The position numbers were made by a program, and so were the translations under genes. The notes beneath the pieces were generated by a model. The model saw only the letters and a list, made by a program, of their open reading frames with translations. It was not told the DNA's origin and did no database searches. A stretch of 64,000 nucleotides of DNA, taken from positions 62,001-126,000 of the forward strand of contig QMVG01000001.1 of assembly GCA_003660975.1 (NCBI GenBank). The letters are read 5' to 3'. This document shows, one piece after another, positions 4,993 to 58,361 of this stretch. This DNA comes from Microcaldota archaeon (GTDB taxonomy: Archaea > B1Sed10-29 > B47-G15). Position 1 is the first letter of the stretch, and each line of letters begins with the position of its first letter.

Positions 4993-5065
4993 GGGCCCGT
5001 GGTCTAGCGGTTAGGACACTGCCTTCACACGGCAGAGATCAAGGGTTCAAATCCCTTCGGGCCCA
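4993..5065 (+). tRNA. tRNA-Val(CAC)
   Basis: A 73-nt cloverleaf with acceptor stem GGGCCCG/CGGGCCC, anticodon stem CTGCC/GGCAG and loop TTCACAC giving anticodon CAC. The T-loop is TTCAAAT and the discriminator A; CCA is not encoded. It starts one base after the stop codon of the preceding gene. The last 17 nt of its 3' half plus flank recur in altered form at 5222-5240, behind a set of hairpin repeats. Confidence 0.96.
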
Positions 5066-5240
5066 TTTTTGCAAGCTTTTTTCACAGTTATCACAGAAAA
5101 AAGCTTATTTTTGCTTAAGCTTTTTCCATAGTTTTCACAGAAAAAAGCTTAGGTCGAAGACCATGACCCCATGGCATTTATTTCGCTTAAGCCTTTAGCG
5201 TAGCGATAATAGAAAAGGCTTAAATTCCTTCGGGCCTATT
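5066..5240 (+). repeat. tRNA-Val-associated hairpin repeat element with duplicated tRNA 3' end
   Basis: Non-coding. It holds three related hairpins: 5071-5107 (AAGCTTTTTT...AAAAAAGCTT), 5113-5151 (TTAAGCTTTTT...AAAAAAGCTTA) and 5181-5225 (CTTAAGCCTTT...AAAAGGCTTAA). Between the second and third is the small palindrome GGTC-GAA-GACC (5152-5162). The third hairpin is followed at 5222-5240 by AAATTCCTTCGGGCCTATT, which matches the true tRNA-Val 3' end at 5049-5067 at 17 of 19 positions. A similar unit, with its own tRNA's tail, lies behind tRNA-Thr at 18.3 kb. This resembles an insertion at a tRNA 3' end with duplication of the target. Confidence 0.7.
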
Positions 5241-18232: not shown

Positions 18233-18304
18233 GCCTCAGTAGCACAGCGGTAGTGCGGCCGCCTTGTAAGCGGCAGGTCGAGGGTTCGAATCCCTCCTGA
18301 GGCT
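18233..18304 (+). tRNA. tRNA-Thr(UGU)
   Basis: A 72-nt cloverleaf: acceptor GCCTCAG/CTGAGGC, anticodon stem GCCGC/GCGGC, loop CTTGTAA with anticodon TGT, T-loop TTCGAAT, discriminator T. Its 3' end and flank (18289-18308) recur at 18382-18401 behind a hairpin element. Confidence 0.95.
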
Positions 18305-18401
18305 TTTATGGCCGGAGGCCATAACTTTGAGGCTTCAGTTTCGCTTAAGCATTTACCATAGGCAATAACAGAAAAGGCTTAAATCTCTCCTGAGGCTTTT
18401 A
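18304..18401 (+). repeat. tRNA-Thr-associated hairpin element with duplicated tRNA 3' end
   Basis: Non-coding. In order: palindrome TTATGGCC-GGA-GGCCATAA (18306-18324), about 15 nt of spacer, then TTTCGCTTAAGCATTTACC...AATAACAGAAAAGGCTTAAAT (18340-18384), whose ends pair. Finally comes a second copy of the tRNA-Thr 3' end (18382-18401, one or two bases different from 18289-18308). The middle part closely matches the third hairpin behind tRNA-Val (5181-5225), yet each copy carries the tail of its own tRNA. Confidence 0.7.
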
Positions 18402-22123: not shown

Positions 22124-23596
22124 TTGTACTATTGGGATGTTGTTGACGCGTATTTCAAAGACAGAAGTATAGTAAAGCAGCATATAGACTCATACAACGA
22201 CTTTGTAAATAACAGGATTCATAACATACTGCAGGAAATAGGTGACATAGAAACAAATAAAGAAGGATGTATCTTAAGGCTTTATAAGCTAAGGTTGGAA
22301 AAATCAGTTGTCACAGAGGCAGATGGTTCTAAGAGACCTATACTTCCCCTAGAAGCAAGGTTAAGAAACCTTACATATTATGCCAGTGTCTTTGTCGATA
22401 TGGGCCTCATCGAGGATGGCGTTGAAAAAGACAGAGTGGAGGTTTACATAGGTAGGCTGCCAGTAATGGTAAAAAGTGACCTCTGCCATTTAAGCGGTAT
22501 GACAAGGGATGAATTGATAAAAGCAGGAGAGGACCCTGATGACCCTGGTGGGTACTTCATAATAAACGGTTCAGAGAGAGTATTAATTTCTGTTGAGGAC
22601 TTAGCGCCGAATAGGGTAATAATCTCAAAAGAGAAAAAGAGCGGTAAGGACCTTGTCATAGGAAGGATATTTTCAACACAAGGAGGCTTTAAGGCAAAGA
22701 TAGCTATAGAGAGAAACAGCCAAGGGCAGATATACATAAGTTTTCCTGCGAGCCCGAAAAACCTGAACCTATTTATAGTGTTGAAAGCACTAGGGCTTGA
22801 AACAACAGAAGATATGATAAATGCGCTCCACATAAGAAATGAGGAAGTCATAAATGATATTTTGTTAAACGTTGAGGGAATTGAGGAAGTTACGACAGAG
22901 GAGGCTCTCCAGTATATAGGAAAAAGGGTGGCTGCTGGGCAGCCAGAAGAATACAGACTAAACAGAGCAGAATACATTATTGAAAATTATCTTTTGCCGC
23001 ACATAGGTCTTGAGAAAACAGACAGGATAAAGAAAGCGTATTTCTTGATGAACATGCTTGAAAGGATAATCGCAGTGGCAAAAGGTTATAGAGACGAGGA
23101 AGACAGGGACCATTATGCCAACAAGAGGATAAAGATATCAGGCAATTTGATGGAGGAATTATTCAGATACGCAATGAACTACTTTGTCAAGGACATCAAG
23201 TATCAGGTAGAGAGAGCATATGCCAGAAACAGAAAATTGCAGATAAAAACGTTAGTAAGACCAGATGCACTGTCTGAGAGGATAAGGTTTTCAATGAGCA
23301 CTGGACAGTGGGTTGGAAGAAGGCAGGGTGTGTCTCAACTTTTAGACAGAATGAGCTATATGGCCACCATAAGCCACTTAAGAAGGGTAAACTCCTTGCT
23401 TTCAAAGACACATCCCCACTTTGAGGCCAGAGACTTACATCCAACACATTGGGGAAAGATATGCCCAAATGAGACACCAGAGGGACCTAGCTGCGGTCTT
23501 GTCAAAAACCTTGCAATGGGTTGCACTATTTCAGCAAGGAATATACCAGGTCTTGAGGAAGAACTGAAACAAATGGGAGTTACAATAAAAAGGTGA
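22124..23596 (+). CDS. rpoB2: RNA polymerase subunit B''
   Basis: The N-terminal half of the second-largest polymerase subunit, 490 residues, with the lobe, protrusion and fork. Recognisable stretches include the GGYFIINGSERVL region near residue 143 and, near the end, RDLHPTHWGKICPNETPEG. The TTG start at 22124 is preceded by GGGTGAT. It ends 4 nt before the B' start. Splitting of the subunit is found in many euryarchaea and their relatives and helps to classify the genome. Confidence 0.96.
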   Translation: MYYWDVVDAYFKDRSIVKQHIDSYNDFVNNRIHNILQEIGDIETNKEGCILRLYKLRLEKSVVTEADGSKRPILPLEARLRNLTYYASVFVDMGLIEDGVEKDRVEVYIGRLPVMVKSDLCHLSGMTRDELIKAGEDPDDPGGYFIINGSERVLISVEDLAPNRVIISKEKKSGKDLVIGRIFSTQGGFKAKIAIERNSQGQIYISFPASPKNLNLFIVLKALGLETTEDMINALHIRNEEVINDILLNVEGIEEVTTEEALQYIGKRVAAGQPEEYRLNRAEYIIENYLLPHIGLEKTDRIKKAYFLMNMLERIIAVAKGYRDEEDRDHYANKRIKISGNLMEELFRYAMNYFVKDIKYQVERAYARNRKLQIKTLVRPDALSERIRFSMSTGQWVGRRQGVSQLLDRMSYMATISHLRRVNSLLSKTHPHFEARDLHPTHWGKICPNETPEGPSCGLVKNLAMGCTISARNIPGLEEELKQMGVTIKR

Positions 23597-23600
23597 AATT

Positions 23601-25415
23601 ATGCTTGGTACAAGTGTTTATCTAAACGGAAAATTAATTGGTTTTCACAATAATCCTAAAGATTTGGTTCAAACAATTAGAGACAGAAGAAGAAATGGCA
23701 AACTTCCTTATGAGGTGACGGTGGCATATTATGAGGATAGAAATGAGGTTTATATAAACGCTGATGAAGGGCGGGCACTAAGACCTCTGATAATCGTAGA
23801 AAAAGGCAAGCCAAAACTCACAAAGGAACACATAAAACTGCTCAAAGAGGGAAAATTAAGCTTTGATGACCTTGTAAAGAACGGCATAATAGAGTACCTT
23901 GATGCTGAGGAAGAGGAAAATGCATACATAGCGATAACAGAGGATGAGCTAACAGAGGAGCATACTCATCTGGAGATTCACCCAGCATTGATTTTGGGGG
24001 TTTGTTCAATAATTTCACCATATCCTGAACACAATTCAGCCCCAAGGGTTCCGATGACTTCTGCTATGATAAAGCAAAGCCTTGGTCTTTATGCGTTAAA
24101 TTACAGGCTGAGAACGGACACCCAGTCCCACATAATGTATTACCCTCATGTGCCAATAGTAAAAACAAAGTTCCACAAAATAGTTGGTGCTGAAGGCAAA
24201 CCTGCTGGGCAGAACTTCATAGTGGCAATTATGCCATACAGGGGGTATAACATAAACGATGCAATTGTTCTGAACAAGGCCAGTGTTGAGCGCGGCCTTG
24301 GAAGAACTGTTTACTTTAGAACATATGAAACCCAGGAAAGGAGATATCCAGGAGGACAGAAGGACAAATTTGAAAGGCCAAAACCAGAGATTTCAGGCTA
24401 TAGGGGTGATGAAGCTTACAGGTTCTTGGACGAAAATGGTATCATAGAGCCTGAATTTAAGGTTAATGGTGGTGATGTAGTAGTTGGGAAAACATCGCCT
24501 CCTAGGTTCCTTGAAGAAATTGGAGAGTTTGGAGGCATGATTGAAGAGAAGCGAAGAGAAAACAGCTTGGCAATAAAGCAGGGAGAGAGCGGATATGTTG
24601 ATCTTGTATTAATAACAGAAAGCGAAAGTGGAAATAGATTGGTAAAGGTAAGAACAAGAAAGGAAATGGTGCCTGAAATAGGGGACAAATTTGCTGCCAG
24701 GCATGGTCAAAAAGGAGTTGTTGGTTTACTAGTGCCTCAAGAAGACATGCCATTCAGCCAAAGTGGGATAATTCCTGACATGTGTATGAATCCGCATGCT
24801 ATTCCTTCTAGGATGACAGTTGGTTATTTATTAGAGGCTCTCGGAGCAAAGGTTGGAAGCCTTGCAGGCAGGCATATTGATGGCACTCCTTTTGACAATG
24901 AAAAGGAGAGAGACCTCAGAGAAGAGTTAAAAAGGTATGGTTTCAAACCAAACGGCACTGAAATATTATATGACGGTGTGACAGGAGAGAGAATAAAAGC
25001 AGAAATTTATGTTGGTGTGATTTACTATCAAAAATTGAAGCACTTGGTTTCAATGAAAATGCATGCAAGGGCAAGAGGACCAGTGCAGATTCTGACAAGG
25101 CAGCCAACAGAAGGACGTGCCAGGGAAGGAGGCTTAAGGTTTGGAGAAATGGAAAGAGATTGCCTGATAGGACATGGCACCTCTATGTTGCTGATGGAGA
25201 GGCTCCTAGAAGAGTCTGACAAGGTCACTGAAATGGTTTGCCCAAGATGTGGGATAATAGCAATAAATGACCAGATAAGAAAGAAAGCATACTGTCCAGT
25301 TTGCGGCTCTACAGAAGTTTATCCGATAGATATGAGCTATGCGTTTAAGCTCTTGTTAAATGAATTGATATCTATGGGCATACTTCCAAAGTTAAACCTA
25401 ACAGACAAAGTTTGA
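23601..25415 (+). CDS. rpoB1: RNA polymerase subunit B'
   Basis: The C-terminal half of the second-largest subunit, 604 residues, including the hybrid-binding domain (GYNINDAIVLNKASVERGLG), the GDKFAARHGQKGVVG motif that contributes to the active centre, and the C-terminal clamp zinc ribbon with C547, C550, C565 and C568. The start follows B'' after 4 nt with GGTGAAATT as ribosome binding site. A' begins 10 nt after the stop. Confidence 0.96.
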   Translation: MLGTSVYLNGKLIGFHNNPKDLVQTIRDRRRNGKLPYEVTVAYYEDRNEVYINADEGRALRPLIIVEKGKPKLTKEHIKLLKEGKLSFDDLVKNGIIEYLDAEEEENAYIAITEDELTEEHTHLEIHPALILGVCSIISPYPEHNSAPRVPMTSAMIKQSLGLYALNYRLRTDTQSHIMYYPHVPIVKTKFHKIVGAEGKPAGQNFIVAIMPYRGYNINDAIVLNKASVERGLGRTVYFRTYETQERRYPGGQKDKFERPKPEISGYRGDEAYRFLDENGIIEPEFKVNGGDVVVGKTSPPRFLEEIGEFGGMIEEKRRENSLAIKQGESGYVDLVLITESESGNRLVKVRTRKEMVPEIGDKFAARHGQKGVVGLLVPQEDMPFSQSGIIPDMCMNPHAIPSRMTVGYLLEALGAKVGSLAGRHIDGTPFDNEKERDLREELKRYGFKPNGTEILYDGVTGERIKAEIYVGVIYYQKLKHLVSMKMHARARGPVQILTRQPTEGRAREGGLRFGEMERDCLIGHGTSMLLMERLLEESDKVTEMVCPRCGIIAINDQIRKKAYCPVCGSTEVYPIDMSYAFKLLLNELISMGILPKLNLTDKV

Positions 25416-34894: not shown

Positions 34895-35596
34895 ATGTCA
34901 CTGAGAGCCAGAAAAAAACTTGAAGACATAGAAAAAAGAGAGAGGGGAAAGAAAAAGGAGGAATGGCTGAAAAGATGGAATGACTACAAAGCAGAGAAAA
35001 GGAAAAGCAAGGAAACAGAGATATTTCTAATAACTCATCCCTTGGCCCATTCTAGGCACTTTAGTAAAAAAGAGAAGGAAAGGATGCTAGAGGTATACAG
35101 ATATGACGTTGAGAGAGCTATGAGTAATGAAAATGCTATTGTTGTCATGCAAAATGTGCCACAGGAACTTAGGGAGGAGGTTAAAAGGCTTAGGTTTAGG
35201 GATAAATTTTTTACGTTGGATGAGATAAAAGAGGGCAAGGTAGCTGTTGGAAAAAACGCAAAGCTTATTGTAAGGGGAGAATATATGGACATATGTGCCT
35301 CAACAGAAGCAGGATTCATTGCTGCTAAATTTGGCCTAAAACCTGAAAATGTTAAGTTTGAGATAGATGAAGCTTATGTTGCAGATGATGTAAGGCACTA
35401 TGCAATACATTTGAACTCAAAACAAGCTTTCAACAATTTTCTAAAGGGGTTCCTGCTTGGAAAAAGGAGAATGAGTAAAAAAGAATTAGAAAGGTTAAAA
35501 AGCAACTGGGAGAGGATATTTGACATAGAACATGGGCTCCACAAGAAGAGATTATGGCTTGCCCATGAAAAGGCAAGGAGGAAAAGGAATGTTTGA
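34895..35596 (+). CDS. Unknown protein encoded before archease and RtcB
   Basis: A 233-residue basic, soluble protein without a family I recognise. It has a Lys/Glu/Arg-rich helical N-terminus (1-45), a central mixed region with THPLAHSRHFSKKEKE near residue 48 and RGEYMDICASTEAGFIAAKFGL near residue 128, and a basic C-terminal helix (KSNWERIFDIEHGLHKKR). The start ATG at 34895 lies about 27 nt after TATA-like CTTTTTTATC, so a leaderless message is likely; upstream in-frame codons fall in tRNA-Ser. It overlaps archease by 8 nt, so the three genes are probably one operon, suggesting a link to RNA ligation or tRNA processing (inference from context). Confidence 0.7.
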   Translation: MSLRARKKLEDIEKRERGKKKEEWLKRWNDYKAEKRKSKETEIFLITHPLAHSRHFSKKEKERMLEVYRYDVERAMSNENAIVVMQNVPQELREEVKRLRFRDKFFTLDEIKEGKVAVGKNAKLIVRGEYMDICASTEAGFIAAKFGLKPENVKFEIDEAYVADDVRHYAIHLNSKQAFNNFLKGFLLGKRRMSKKELERLKSNWERIFDIEHGLHKKRLWLAHEKARRKRNV

Positions 35597-35996
35597 AACC
35601 TTTGAGCATAAGGCAGACATTGGTGTTAGGGGCATTGGAAAGACAATTGAGGAGGCTTTTGAGGAAGCAGCTAAAGCCATGTTCTCAATAATGTTTGACA
35701 TAAATTGCATTGAAAAAAAGGAGAAAGTAACATTGAAATGCAATGGAGATGATTTAGAGATGTTGCTTGTTGAGTGGCTTAATACCTTGCTTGCTGAAGC
35801 AGACCTAAGAGGCCTTGCATTTTCTGAATTCAGGGCAAAGATAGAGCAGAACAGTTTAAAAGGTGAGGCATATGGTGAAAAGTTAAATGTAAAGAAACAC
35901 AAAGCAAAGACAGAGGTCAAAGCAGCCACGTATTCAAATCTCAAGGTTTATGAGGATAATGGAAGATGGATTGCTGAGTGTATCGTAGATGTATAG
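35589..35996 (+). CDS. Archease (RtcB activator)
   Basis: A 135-residue archease, which speeds RtcB guanylylation and turnover during tRNA ligation. MFETFEHKADIGVRG contains the conserved metal-binding Asp, and the C-terminus WIAECIVDV holds the closing acidic residue. The ATG at 35589, behind GGAGGAAAAGG, is the start; longer in-frame starts fall in the preceding gene. RtcB follows after 9 nt. Confidence 0.93.
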   Translation: MFETFEHKADIGVRGIGKTIEEAFEEAAKAMFSIMFDINCIEKKEKVTLKCNGDDLEMLLVEWLNTLLAEADLRGLAFSEFRAKIEQNSLKGEAYGEKLNVKKHKAKTEVKAATYSNLKVYEDNGRWIAECIVDV

Positions 35997-36005
35997 GTGA
36001 AGACT

Positions 36006-37436
36006 GTGGACCCATCATTATTTAAAAAAATAAGTGAATATGAGTGGGAAATTGAAAAGCAGGGAGAGATGAACGTAAAGGCCAAAATATTTGCCTCAGA
36101 AAACTTGCTTCTGAAAATGGACGAAAAAGTAAAAGAGCAATTGATGAATGTAGCTTCCTTGCCTGGCATTGTAGAAGCTGCAATGGCAATGAGTGATGCC
36201 CATTGGGGTTATGGTTTTCCCATAGGCGGCGTGGCTGCGTTTGACGGAAATGAAGGGGGAGTGCTAAGTGTTGGAGGGGTTGGCTTTGATATAAACTGCG
36301 GTGTGAGGACCATGTCAACTAACTTATCAGTAGATGACATAAAAGGAAAAGAAGAGATTATTGCAGATGCTCTTTTCAAAAATGTTCCTGCTGGTTTGGG
36401 AAGTACTGGAAAAATTAAGCTAAATCTCTATGGCATTGATGAGGTGCTCAGAGGAGGAGCAGAGTGGGCTGTTGATAAGGGTTATGGGATCCCGGAAGAT
36501 TTGAATTTCATTGAAGAGAATGGAAAAATGGAAAACGCTGACCCCTCAAAGGTCTCGGATATGGCAAAAAAGAGGCAATTTAAAGAAGTTGGAACCTTGG
36601 GAAGCGGCAACCATTACCTAGAGGTTCAGGTTGTAGATAAGATATATGATGAAAAACTGGCTAAAAAACTTGGATTTTTTGAAGGGAAGGTCATGGTATC
36701 ATTCCACACAGGGTCAAGGGCATTGGGGCATCAAATAGGCATGGATTACTTGAAAATATTGGCCCATGCCTCCAAGAAATATGGGATAAAAATTAGAGAT
36801 AGGGAGCTTGTCTGTGCTCCTATCAGCTCAAAGGAAGGTCAAGATTACTTTGCTGCTGTAAACGCAGGTATGAATTGTGCATTCGCTAATAGACAGGTGA
36901 TAGCACATCTTGTTAGGGAAAGTATAGAAAGCATAATACCACACGCAGAAGTAAAAACATTCTACGAAATAGGACATAACACCTGCAAGGTTGAAAAGCA
37001 TGTAATAGATGGTAAGGAAAGAAGCTTGTATGTTCACAGGAAGGGAGCTACCAGGGCTTTTGGTCCTAAAAGAAAAGAAATTCCAAAGGAATACAGGGAC
37101 ATGGGTCAACCTGTCTTAATAGGGGGAAGTATGGGCACATATTCATATATACTGCTTGGCACAGAATTGGGTATGAAAAAGGCATTTGGTAGTGCGTGTC
37201 ATGGTGCTGGAAGGAGCAAATCAAGAAGGCAGGCAAAAAGAGAACAGCGCGGTGAAGAGGTCATAAGAAAACTAAAGGAAAGAGGCATTGTTGTAAGATA
37301 TCATTCTGCTTCAGGTGTCGCGGAAGAGGCTCCTGAGGCATATAAAGATGTTGTTGAAGTTGTTGATAGCATAGCAAACGCAGGCCTTGCAAAGAAGTTA
37401 GTAAGGTTGAGGCCAATAATAAATGTGAAAGGATAA
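36006..37436 (+). CDS. rtcB: tRNA-splicing ligase RtcB
   Basis: Joins tRNA exons with 2',3'-cyclic phosphate and 5'-OH ends using GTP and manganese; 476 residues. Metal and catalytic residues are visible in DINCGVRT, GSGNHYLEVQ, HTGSRALGHQ and CHGAGRSKSR (H399, the guanylylated His). There is no intein. A GTG at 35997 touches the archease stop, but GGTGA precedes the GTG at 36006, which I take as the start. Two intron-containing tRNAs in this window (Tyr, Pro) are likely substrates. Confidence 0.95.
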   Translation: MDPSLFKKISEYEWEIEKQGEMNVKAKIFASENLLLKMDEKVKEQLMNVASLPGIVEAAMAMSDAHWGYGFPIGGVAAFDGNEGGVLSVGGVGFDINCGVRTMSTNLSVDDIKGKEEIIADALFKNVPAGLGSTGKIKLNLYGIDEVLRGGAEWAVDKGYGIPEDLNFIEENGKMENADPSKVSDMAKKRQFKEVGTLGSGNHYLEVQVVDKIYDEKLAKKLGFFEGKVMVSFHTGSRALGHQIGMDYLKILAHASKKYGIKIRDRELVCAPISSKEGQDYFAAVNAGMNCAFANRQVIAHLVRESIESIIPHAEVKTFYEIGHNTCKVEKHVIDGKERSLYVHRKGATRAFGPKRKEIPKEYRDMGQPVLIGGSMGTYSYILLGTELGMKKAFGSACHGAGRSKSRRQAKREQRGEEVIRKLKERGIVVRYHSASGVAEEAPEAYKDVVEVVDSIANAGLAKKLVRLRPIINVKG

Positions 37437-56801: not shown

Positions 56802-56996
56802 ATGTTAATACCAATACGTTGCTTTTCGTGTGGAAGACCGATTGCCCAACACTGGGAAGTATATAAAAGTAGGATTGAAAAGGGCGAAGATCCTGGCAAG
56901 GTACTTGATGACCTTGGAGTGCACAGTTACTGTTGTAGAAGGATGTTCATAGGACATAGAGATATAATGCCGAAGCTCCTAGATTATAGCATATAA
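56802..56996 (+). CDS. rpoN: RNA polymerase subunit N (Rpb10)
   Basis: A 64-residue zinc-bundle subunit: PIRCFSCGRPIAQHW (C7, C10) and YCCRRMFIGH (adjacent cysteines near 44-45), the diagnostic CxxC...CC pattern. GGTGAGAAC precedes the ATG. tRNA-Pro begins on the next base after the stop; an rpoK gene, often next, is not here. Confidence 0.96.
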   Translation: MLIPIRCFSCGRPIAQHWEVYKSRIEKGEDPGKVLDDLGVHSYCCRRMFIGHRDIMPKLLDYSI

Positions 56997-57111
56997 GGGG
57001 CCATAGGGTAGCCTGGTCCATCCCCCCAGCTTGGGGTGCTGGTAACCCGAGTTCAAAAAGAGGGGCCCCACTCAGGAGAGAGGACCTCTCTTGAAAATCT
57101 CGGTGGCCCCA
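56997..57111 (+). tRNA. tRNA-Pro(GGG) with a 40-nt intron in the T-loop
   Basis: Acceptor GGGGCCA/TGGCCCC, anticodon stem CCAGC/GCTGG, loop TTGGGGT with anticodon GGG. The T-stem CCGAG (57047-57051) and CTCGG (57099-57103) are separated by 47 nt instead of 7. Removing 57058-57097 restores TTCAAAT and a 75-nt tRNA identical in layout to tRNA-Pro(UGG). The insert's edges pair (TTCAAAAAGAGG with CCTCTCTTGAA), giving a bulge-helix-bulge-like substrate. Runs of A leave the exact splice sites uncertain by a few bases. It starts right after the rpoN stop. Confidence 0.9.
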
Positions 57112-57125
57112 TCACGTGATAACTT

Positions 57126-58361
57126 ATGAAGATTGACAAGATAGAGCTTAAGCCTGCATACGACTCCAGAGGAAGACTTACTGTTGAGGCGGTCGTCTAC
57201 TCTGGTAAAAAATCTGCTTCTGCAAAAAGCCCGCACGGCACCAGCAGTGGCAGCTACGAAGTGGAACACCTCCCAGAAGGGGAAATAAGCATAGCAGAGG
57301 CAAAGCGAGCTTTACTTCCACAATTACTGAACAGAGAATTCCAAAAGCAGAGCGATATTGACGAAGCAATGAAGAAAATTGATGGGAGCCAGAACTTGTC
57401 TAGGTTTGGAGGTGCAGTCATACTAGCTATCTCCCTCGCTGCAGCAAAGTTGGCAGCAAAATTGGAAAAAAAGCAGTTGTTTGAGTACCTCAGTGACTCT
57501 GAGCAATATGCGATGCCATACCCTCTTGGCAAGTGTATAGGTGGTGGGGTTCATGGCAGAAAAAATTCTCCAGAGATACAGGAATTTCTCGTGCTGCCTC
57601 TTGGAGCAAAGAACATAAGGGAAGCTATAAGTATCAACAATGACGTTCATAAGAAGACGCTTGAAGAGATATTGAAAAGGTATCCAAAATTTGACAAAAA
57701 GCTTGATTTTGAGGGTGGTTGGAATCCCCCCATTAGCAATGAAGAGGCCCTTGATGTACTAACAGCCGCTGTTGAGCAGATTTCGGATGAAAGAAATGCG
57801 GACATTAGAATTGGCATTGATATGGCAGCTAGTGAATATTTCAATGGCAGGTATTATGTATACAAAAGAGAGAAACAAGAATTTAATAAAAAGGAGCAGT
57901 TTGAGTATGTAAGCAAGCTGATAAAGGATTACAAGCTGTTTTATGTTGAGGACCCTTTTGAGGAGAATGACTTCAAAAATCATGCAAAACTGTCAAGGAA
58001 ATTTAGAAATACTTTAATAGTGGGAGATGACCTGTTTACAACAAACAGCAAGAGATTAAGAGAAGGCATAAAGGAAAAGGCTTGCAATGGCATCATAATA
58101 AAACCAAACCAAATAGGCACTGTTACTGACACATACAAAACAGTTAAACTGGCAAAAAAACATTCATATGTTCCTGTCATATCACATAGGTCTGGTGAAA
58201 CCGATGATGCTAGTATATCTCACATGGCAGTTGCTTGGAATATCCCAATAATCAAAATAGGGATTTTAGGAAGAGAAAGGATTGTCAAATTAAAAGAATT
58301 GGTGGAGATTGATAGATACCTTAAAAAGGTGGGGATGAATAATATTTACTTAAAAAATTGA
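57126..58361 (+). CDS. eno: Enolase
   Basis: Interconverts 2-phosphoglycerate and PEP; 411 residues. Metal and active-site parts: IGIDMAASEYF, YVEDPFEEND, VGDDLFTTN, IIKPNQIGT and SHRSGETDD, then IKIGILGRERIVK with the second catalytic lysine. The mobile loop near residue 38 reads PHGTSSGSYE rather than PSGASTG, a mild departure. Enolase followed by S2 and MEMO is a common archaeal arrangement. Confidence 0.94.
   Translation: MKIDKIELKPAYDSRGRLTVEAVVYSGKKSASAKSPHGTSSGSYEVEHLPEGEISIAEAKRALLPQLLNREFQKQSDIDEAMKKIDGSQNLSRFGGAVILAISLAAAKLAAKLEKKQLFEYLSDSEQYAMPYPLGKCIGGGVHGRKNSPEIQEFLVLPLGAKNIREAISINNDVHKKTLEEILKRYPKFDKKLDFEGGWNPPISNEEALDVLTAAVEQISDERNADIRIGIDMAASEYFNGRYYVYKREKQEFNKKEQFEYVSKLIKDYKLFYVEDPFEENDFKNHAKLSRKFRNTLIVGDDLFTTNSKRLREGIKEKACNGIIIKPNQIGTVTDTYKTVKLAKKHSYVPVISHRSGETDDASISHMAVAWNIPIIKIGILGRERIVKLKELVEIDRYLKKVGMNNIYLKN

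Follow-up and report, generated by a model that had tools for sequence, protein, structure and literature searches.

A T-loop intron framed by a strict bulge-helix-bulge in the tRNA-Pro(GGG) gene of an archaeon with a single, apparently alpha4-type, splicing endonuclease

The archaeal DNA considered here, a stretch of 64,000 nucleotides referred to as the window, holds a gene for tRNA-Pro(GGG) that is interrupted in the T-loop by an intron of 40 nt (Table 1). This gene is the sole tRNA-Pro(GGG) candidate recognised in the genome for the codons CCC and CCU, which account for 106 of the 231 Pro codons counted over 13 genes of the window. Very probably, the tRNA is spliced from the intron-bearing precursor by a single tRNA-splicing endonuclease (EndA) of the alpha4 type, together with the ligase RtcB and its partner archease. 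The precursor would fold into a canonical bulge-helix-bulge (BHB) on top of the T-stem, the alpha4-type EndA would cut after positions 57057 and 57097, because it reads the BHB rather than the position within the tRNA, and RtcB with archease would join the exons into a tRNA of 75 nt whose T-loop has the normal sequence UUCAAAU. Transcription of the precursor, assembly of the tetramer, cleavage and ligation are all events that we infer from sequence.

The tRNA gene starts one base past the stop codon of an RPB10-like ORF, and its end is separated by 14 bases from the gene for enolase. On reading of the sequence, the acceptor stem (GGGGCCA/TGGCCCC) is complete and a D-arm is present; the anticodon stem is CCAGC/GCTGG, and the two halves of the T-stem are 47 nt apart. 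Deletion of nucleotides 57058-57097 yields a 75-nt tRNA with T-loop TTCAAAT and a complete cloverleaf with all stems. Its alignment with the Pro(UGG) and Pro(CGG) genes from this genome is gap-free, column for column, as is that with the Pro(GGG) genes that other archaea have without an intron. The insertion point lies between tRNA positions 59 and 60, at the junction 57057|57098. An initial annotation had described a tRNA-Pro(GGG) with a T-loop intron and, after removal of the intron, a match to Pro(UGG); the 75-nt spliced form and its alignment bear out both statements. Elsewhere in the window (22124-25415), RNA polymerase B is seemingly split into two adjacent ORFs, one of 490 aa (Rpb2 domains 1-3) followed by one of 604 aa, which appears to be a euryarchaeal-like trait, the assignment being made from a scan of the 490-aa ORF only.

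Table 1. Features of the tRNA-Pro(GGG) locus, its splice motif and the candidate ligation genes (positions in the window).
Feature	Position	Strand	Evidence
Archease, RtcB partner, adjoins RtcB	35532..35996	+	PF01951, E 3e-45
RtcB tRNA-splicing ligase, candidate exon ligase	35997..37436	+	PF01139, E 6e-164
rpoN (RPB10)-like ORF, directly upstream	56802..56996	+	Sequence reading alone, no family-library scan
tRNA-Pro(GGG), interrupted	56997..57111	+	Sequence reading, exon alignment, 88.3 bits with Pro model R1
5' exon, tRNA positions 1-59	56997..57057	+	
Anticodon GGG, loop TTGGGGT	57033..57035	+	
BHB outer helix, T-stem 5' strand CCGAG	57047..57051	+	
Central helix, exon strand UUCA	57052..57055	+	
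5' bulge AAA, predicted cut 57057/57058	57056..57058	+	BHB cut rule
Intron, 40 nt, position 59/60 (T-loop)	57058..57097	+	
Inner helix, 5' strand AGAGGGG	57059..57065	+	7 contiguous pairs
Inner helix, 3' strand	57085..57091	+	
Central helix, intron strand UGAA	57092..57095	+	4/4 pairs; covarying pairs in relatives
3' bulge AAU, predicted cut 57097/57098	57096..57098	+	
3' exon: U60, T-stem 3' strand, acceptor 3' strand, A73	57098..57111	+	
BHB outer helix, T-stem 3' strand CTCGG	57099..57103	+	
Enolase, directly downstream	57126..58361	+	TIGR01060, E 3e-113

Standard tRNA finders lose an interrupted gene of this kind, so that such genomes look devoid of tRNA-Pro(GGG). ARAGORN misses the gene, as does the Rfam tRNA model at its gathering threshold and even at E<=10; a covariance model for tRNA-Pro (R1, composed of eight rows with the spliced window gene among them) finds it. 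An intact Pro(GGG) elsewhere in the genome, which according to the initial annotation would, with this copy unexpressed, speak against its reading, was looked for, and none was found at any threshold tried in an assembly that is fragmented and 89.7% complete, such that a second Pro(GGG), or a second endonuclease subunit, could be missing from it.

The junction is a strict hBHBh' motif, i.e., a central helix of 4 bp and two 3-nt bulges, which extends across the exon-intron boundaries. BHB cuts fall behind the second base of each bulge, and with this rule the 4 + 2 exon bases and U60 add up to exactly a 7-base T-loop, as they do at 37/38 in the anticodon loop. Sequence alone leaves the cut position uncertain by as much as 3 nt (AAA/AAAA); the intron boundaries proposed initially are the sole choice that places canonical cuts in both 3-nt bulges, and the BHB suggested at these ends is confirmed in its strict form. 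In the unconstrained minimum-free-energy (MFE) fold of the precursor (-24.8 kcal/mol), the junction is open, as a 6x6 loop; the BHB form is found at -23.2 kcal/mol, 1.6 kcal/mol above the isolated MFE. When the intron was shuffled, the fraction that reached 4/4 central pairs and an inner helix of at least 4 bp was 0.0001 (mononucleotide) to 0.002 (dinucleotide).

A profile search of the ~90% complete assembly identified one gene with PF01974. The encoded EndA of 172 aa is composed of an N and a C domain (PF02778 and PF01974), matches TIGR00324 and has as its full-length PDB match 1A79, the M. jannaschii EndA, to which it is closest. The catalytic Tyr, His and Lys are conserved in the alignment with 1A79, in which residues 16-171 of the M. 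jannaschii row come from the PDB match. Apart from this single 172-aa gene, neither a second EndA subunit nor a three-unit fusion (~390 aa) was found in the genome; EndAs of epsilon size (387-405 aa) occur in other genomes examined. Gene number and length point to an enzyme of the alpha4 type that would assemble as a tetramer. Among 19 genomes sampled from the class to which the archaeon belongs, 15 (including its own) have one endA gene, one (G001) has two, and three incomplete genomes have none; wherever endA was recovered in the class, it is a single gene of the alpha4 type, save in the genome with two. As judged from sequence alignment, the EndAs of the class have no CSL/ASL-like insertion relative to that of M. 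jannaschii; the EndA tree is too weakly resolved for dating the gain of the introns. The two EndAs of G001, a genome of the same order, are paralogs (L149, L150), in one of which the catalytic His is replaced by Asn, and this pair is possibly an independent origin of a heteromeric enzyme.

According to reviews, enzymes of the alpha4 and alpha'2 types are confined to canonical BHB motifs (PMC4033280), alpha4 enzymes being described as strict to BHBs "at the canonical position" (PMC4090602), and diverse introns are carried by species whose enzymes have CSL/ASL loops (PMC6379350; PMC12397907). The narrow alpha2 enzyme of Haloferax cuts strict BHBs in pre-rRNA and a 5'UTR (PMC7714728), which implies that position is not the limit and that the window intron fits a narrow enzyme. 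Because its motif is strict, this intron is most likely handled by the alpha4 enzyme. The initial annotation had held that an alpha-beta or epsilon endonuclease is needed; once the endonuclease was typed, as that annotation had proposed, this part of it was not supported, since the one PF01974 gene appears to be of alpha4 type and the motif is a strict BHB, which narrow enzymes cut outside anticodon loops too. The need for an alpha-beta enzyme was rejected. The RtcB/archease pair that had been noted as a possible source of the ligation activity was recovered in the window by family matches to both.

Introns in the T-loop (59/60) are found in the Pro(GGG) genes of five relatives in the class (G002, G006, G010, G015, G018) and in Pro(CGG) of two of these (G002, G006); G004 and G009 have T-loop introns in many tRNA isotypes. 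The order rpoN - tRNA-Pro - eno and the intron site are common to the window and G006, and G002 has the same intron site with tRNA-Pro beside eno. Pro(GGG) is interrupted instead at 37/38 in G005 and near 32/33 in G011, and it is intronless in six genomes (G003, G008, G012, G013, G014, G016). An alignment of eight T-loop-intron pre-tRNAs (six genomes, two tRNA-Pro types), built by MAFFT without a fit to structure, forms all 192 pair cells (24 pairs each), with two-sided changes at 11 of the 24 pairs; in the controls, pairs form at 87% in shuffles and at no more than 55% when slid. Within the exon-intron central helix of these precursors, A-U, G-U and G-C occur at the fourth pair and U-A and U-G at the second, and the intron cores have no obvious sequence in common. 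In the Pro(GGG) intron of G006, contiguous pairing of the inner helix is limited to 1 bp, and the introns of G010, G015 and G018 (11-12 nt) are essentially bulge-helix-loop.

In 1.26 Mb of DNA, both strands included, 28 sequences satisfied a detector that demanded a T-stem, an acceptor, U8, AG in the D-loop and a central helix paired at 4/4; among them are numerous isotypes from G004 and G009. One of the 28 is a gene already in the set, read a second time, and the set is biased because the loci were fetched by similarity. A relaxed T-arm detector gave 63 matches; since many of those with 0-3 central pairs are due to chance or to 3'-end duplications, only 4/4 cases were counted, at the possible cost of missing genuine relaxed introns. 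Beyond the class, introns occupy the T-loop site of tRNA-Pro in G234, in G185 and G030, which have one alpha-type EndA each (open frames of 179 aa and 206 aa), and in five genomes with a fusion EndA of 387-405 aa (G024, G086, G196, G247, G264), for some of which the exact intron position was judged by eye and could be off by a few bases. Such introns inside and outside the class make the T-loop of tRNA-Pro a recurrent site. In genomes that we take to be of a Methanothermobacter-like genus, the orthologous Pro gene, which lies next to rpoN, is interrupted by introns of the anticodon loop. D-loop insertions are seen in tRNAs of G017 (L137) and G008 (L143), with a single alpha4-type EndA per genome.

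Compatible with splicing by the alpha4-type enzyme, although rather unlikely, is a descent of the T-loop introns from small elements whose insertion sites are the T-loops of tRNA genes; if the insert restores the 3' end, the tRNA would stay intact, and if it does not, the insert must be spliced out. In the genome of the window, Thr-UGU, Ala-UGC, Val-CAC and Val-GAC are each followed by an element of 75-165 nt and, after it, by a 12-19 nt copy of the tRNA's own 3' end that starts near A58/A59; these would be att-like insertions at nearly the site of the intron. The Pro(GGG) intron has, however, no visible similarity to these elements. Near-identical T-loop inserts in several tRNAs of G009 (27 matches counted in the genome) also agree with such an origin, but G009 and G004 are also explained by recombination between conserved T-arms or by reverse splicing.

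The elements behind the four tRNAs (window 18233-18397 and 4993-5238; L006, L014) have modules of the form TAAGC..TTT...ACAGAAAA..GCTTA. The inserts of G009 (GAAGGGTTGCACCCTTTCTAAACCTGC...; L202, L206, L209, L212, L223, L228, L229) are found in several isotypes, and some tRNA genes of this genome, whose one EndA is of the alpha4 type, seemingly combine an anticodon intron with introns in both the D-loop and the T-loop. Closely similar T-loop introns in Pro(UGG) and Pro(CGG) of G004 (L204, G004:C36 1501-1700; L092) suggest spread between isoacceptors.

Removal of the T-loop intron by a broader enzyme, containing a diverged second EndA subunit that is absent from the assembly or unrecognised by PF01974, is improbable. 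The ~90% completeness of the assembly would allow for such a subunit, the altered paralog of G001 indicates that heteromers can arise in this order, and some introns of the relatives, being relaxed or without an inner helix, are not expected to be cut by narrow enzymes. Yet exactly one PF01974 gene is present in 15 of the 16 class genomes with any match (the present one included), and the strict window motif needs nothing broader. A disrupted, non-functional copy, replaced in function by another gene, is highly improbable and was rejected: although the assembly is incomplete and Pro(UGG) might, from general knowledge, read CCC/CCU by wobble, the acceptor, D, anticodon and T stems are all intact, the insertion exactly frames a BHB, relatives use the same site with compensatory changes, and the search gave no second Pro(GGG) at the thresholds tried. 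Retention of the insert was considered and rejected, as was a role of the intron as a C/D-box host, for which it is too short.

According to the published rule, intron diversity co-evolved with (alpha-beta)2/epsilon2 enzymes, the broad-specificity endonucleases to which noncanonical tRNA introns are generally tied. The window intron obeys the strict rule for alpha4 enzymes; its relatives strain it. On a wider reading, which is plausible but against which we would lean slightly, alpha4 EndA without a specificity loop processes many noncanonical tRNA introns across the class (in the T-loop, the D-loop and at 32/33, with as many as three in one gene and with some that measure 11-12 nt and have no inner helix), the co-evolution rule fails for the whole lineage, and the T-loop inserts spread as a mobile family. 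Current rules fail to predict the many T-loop introns in relatives with the same kind of enzyme, and the published rule needs changing if alpha4 removes their relaxed and 11-12 nt introns. The strict, relaxed and 11-nt introns of the relatives, all alongside one type of enzyme, are natural substrates on which position and motif are separable in tests.

A more elaborate arrangement is seen in G004:C1 (L092, 1374-1716), where tRNA-Pro(CGG) of 75 nt is assembled from three exons (1374-1414, 1597-1616 and 1703-1716). Within the 182-nt anticodon intron of this gene lies a further tRNA-Pro, which is permuted, its 3' half (1449-1462) preceding its 5' half (1501-1561); the halves join at 59/60 to give 75 nt with anticodon loop TTAGGGA, and an 11-bp helix is present between the flanks. 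This may be a permuted tRNA gene inside the intron of another tRNA gene; its splice motifs are non-canonical, and an assembly error is an alternative.

The 59/60 site, BHB introns and the alpha4 EndA are each already known; an alpha4 EndA together with a 59/60 intron in tRNA-Pro of a small-genome archaeal class was not found in the literature searched, which comprised papers outside subscription. The noncanonical 59/60 introns of Thermoproteales and others (PMC4090602) are likewise of BHB type and placed between positions 59 and 60, but occur mainly in lineages with (alpha-beta)2 or epsilon2 enzymes, whereas a single alpha4-type EndA is found here and Pro isoacceptors are the recurrent host genes. 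The M. jannaschii system, i.e., alpha4 EndA (1A79) and 37/38 introns, is alike in enzyme type and strict hBHBh' motif, which resides there on the anticodon stem and here on the T-stem. The multi-intron tRNAs of Methanothermobacter and Methanopyrus (PMC4033280) are also examples of noncanonical introns outside Thermoproteota, but these are located in the anticodon loop, and no T-loop site is seen there. The permuted tRNAs of Thermofilum pendens (PMC3218864) share the 59/60 junction and the BHB logic, and are to be compared with the G004 locus; in contrast, the window gene has a simple cis intron and the normal exon order.
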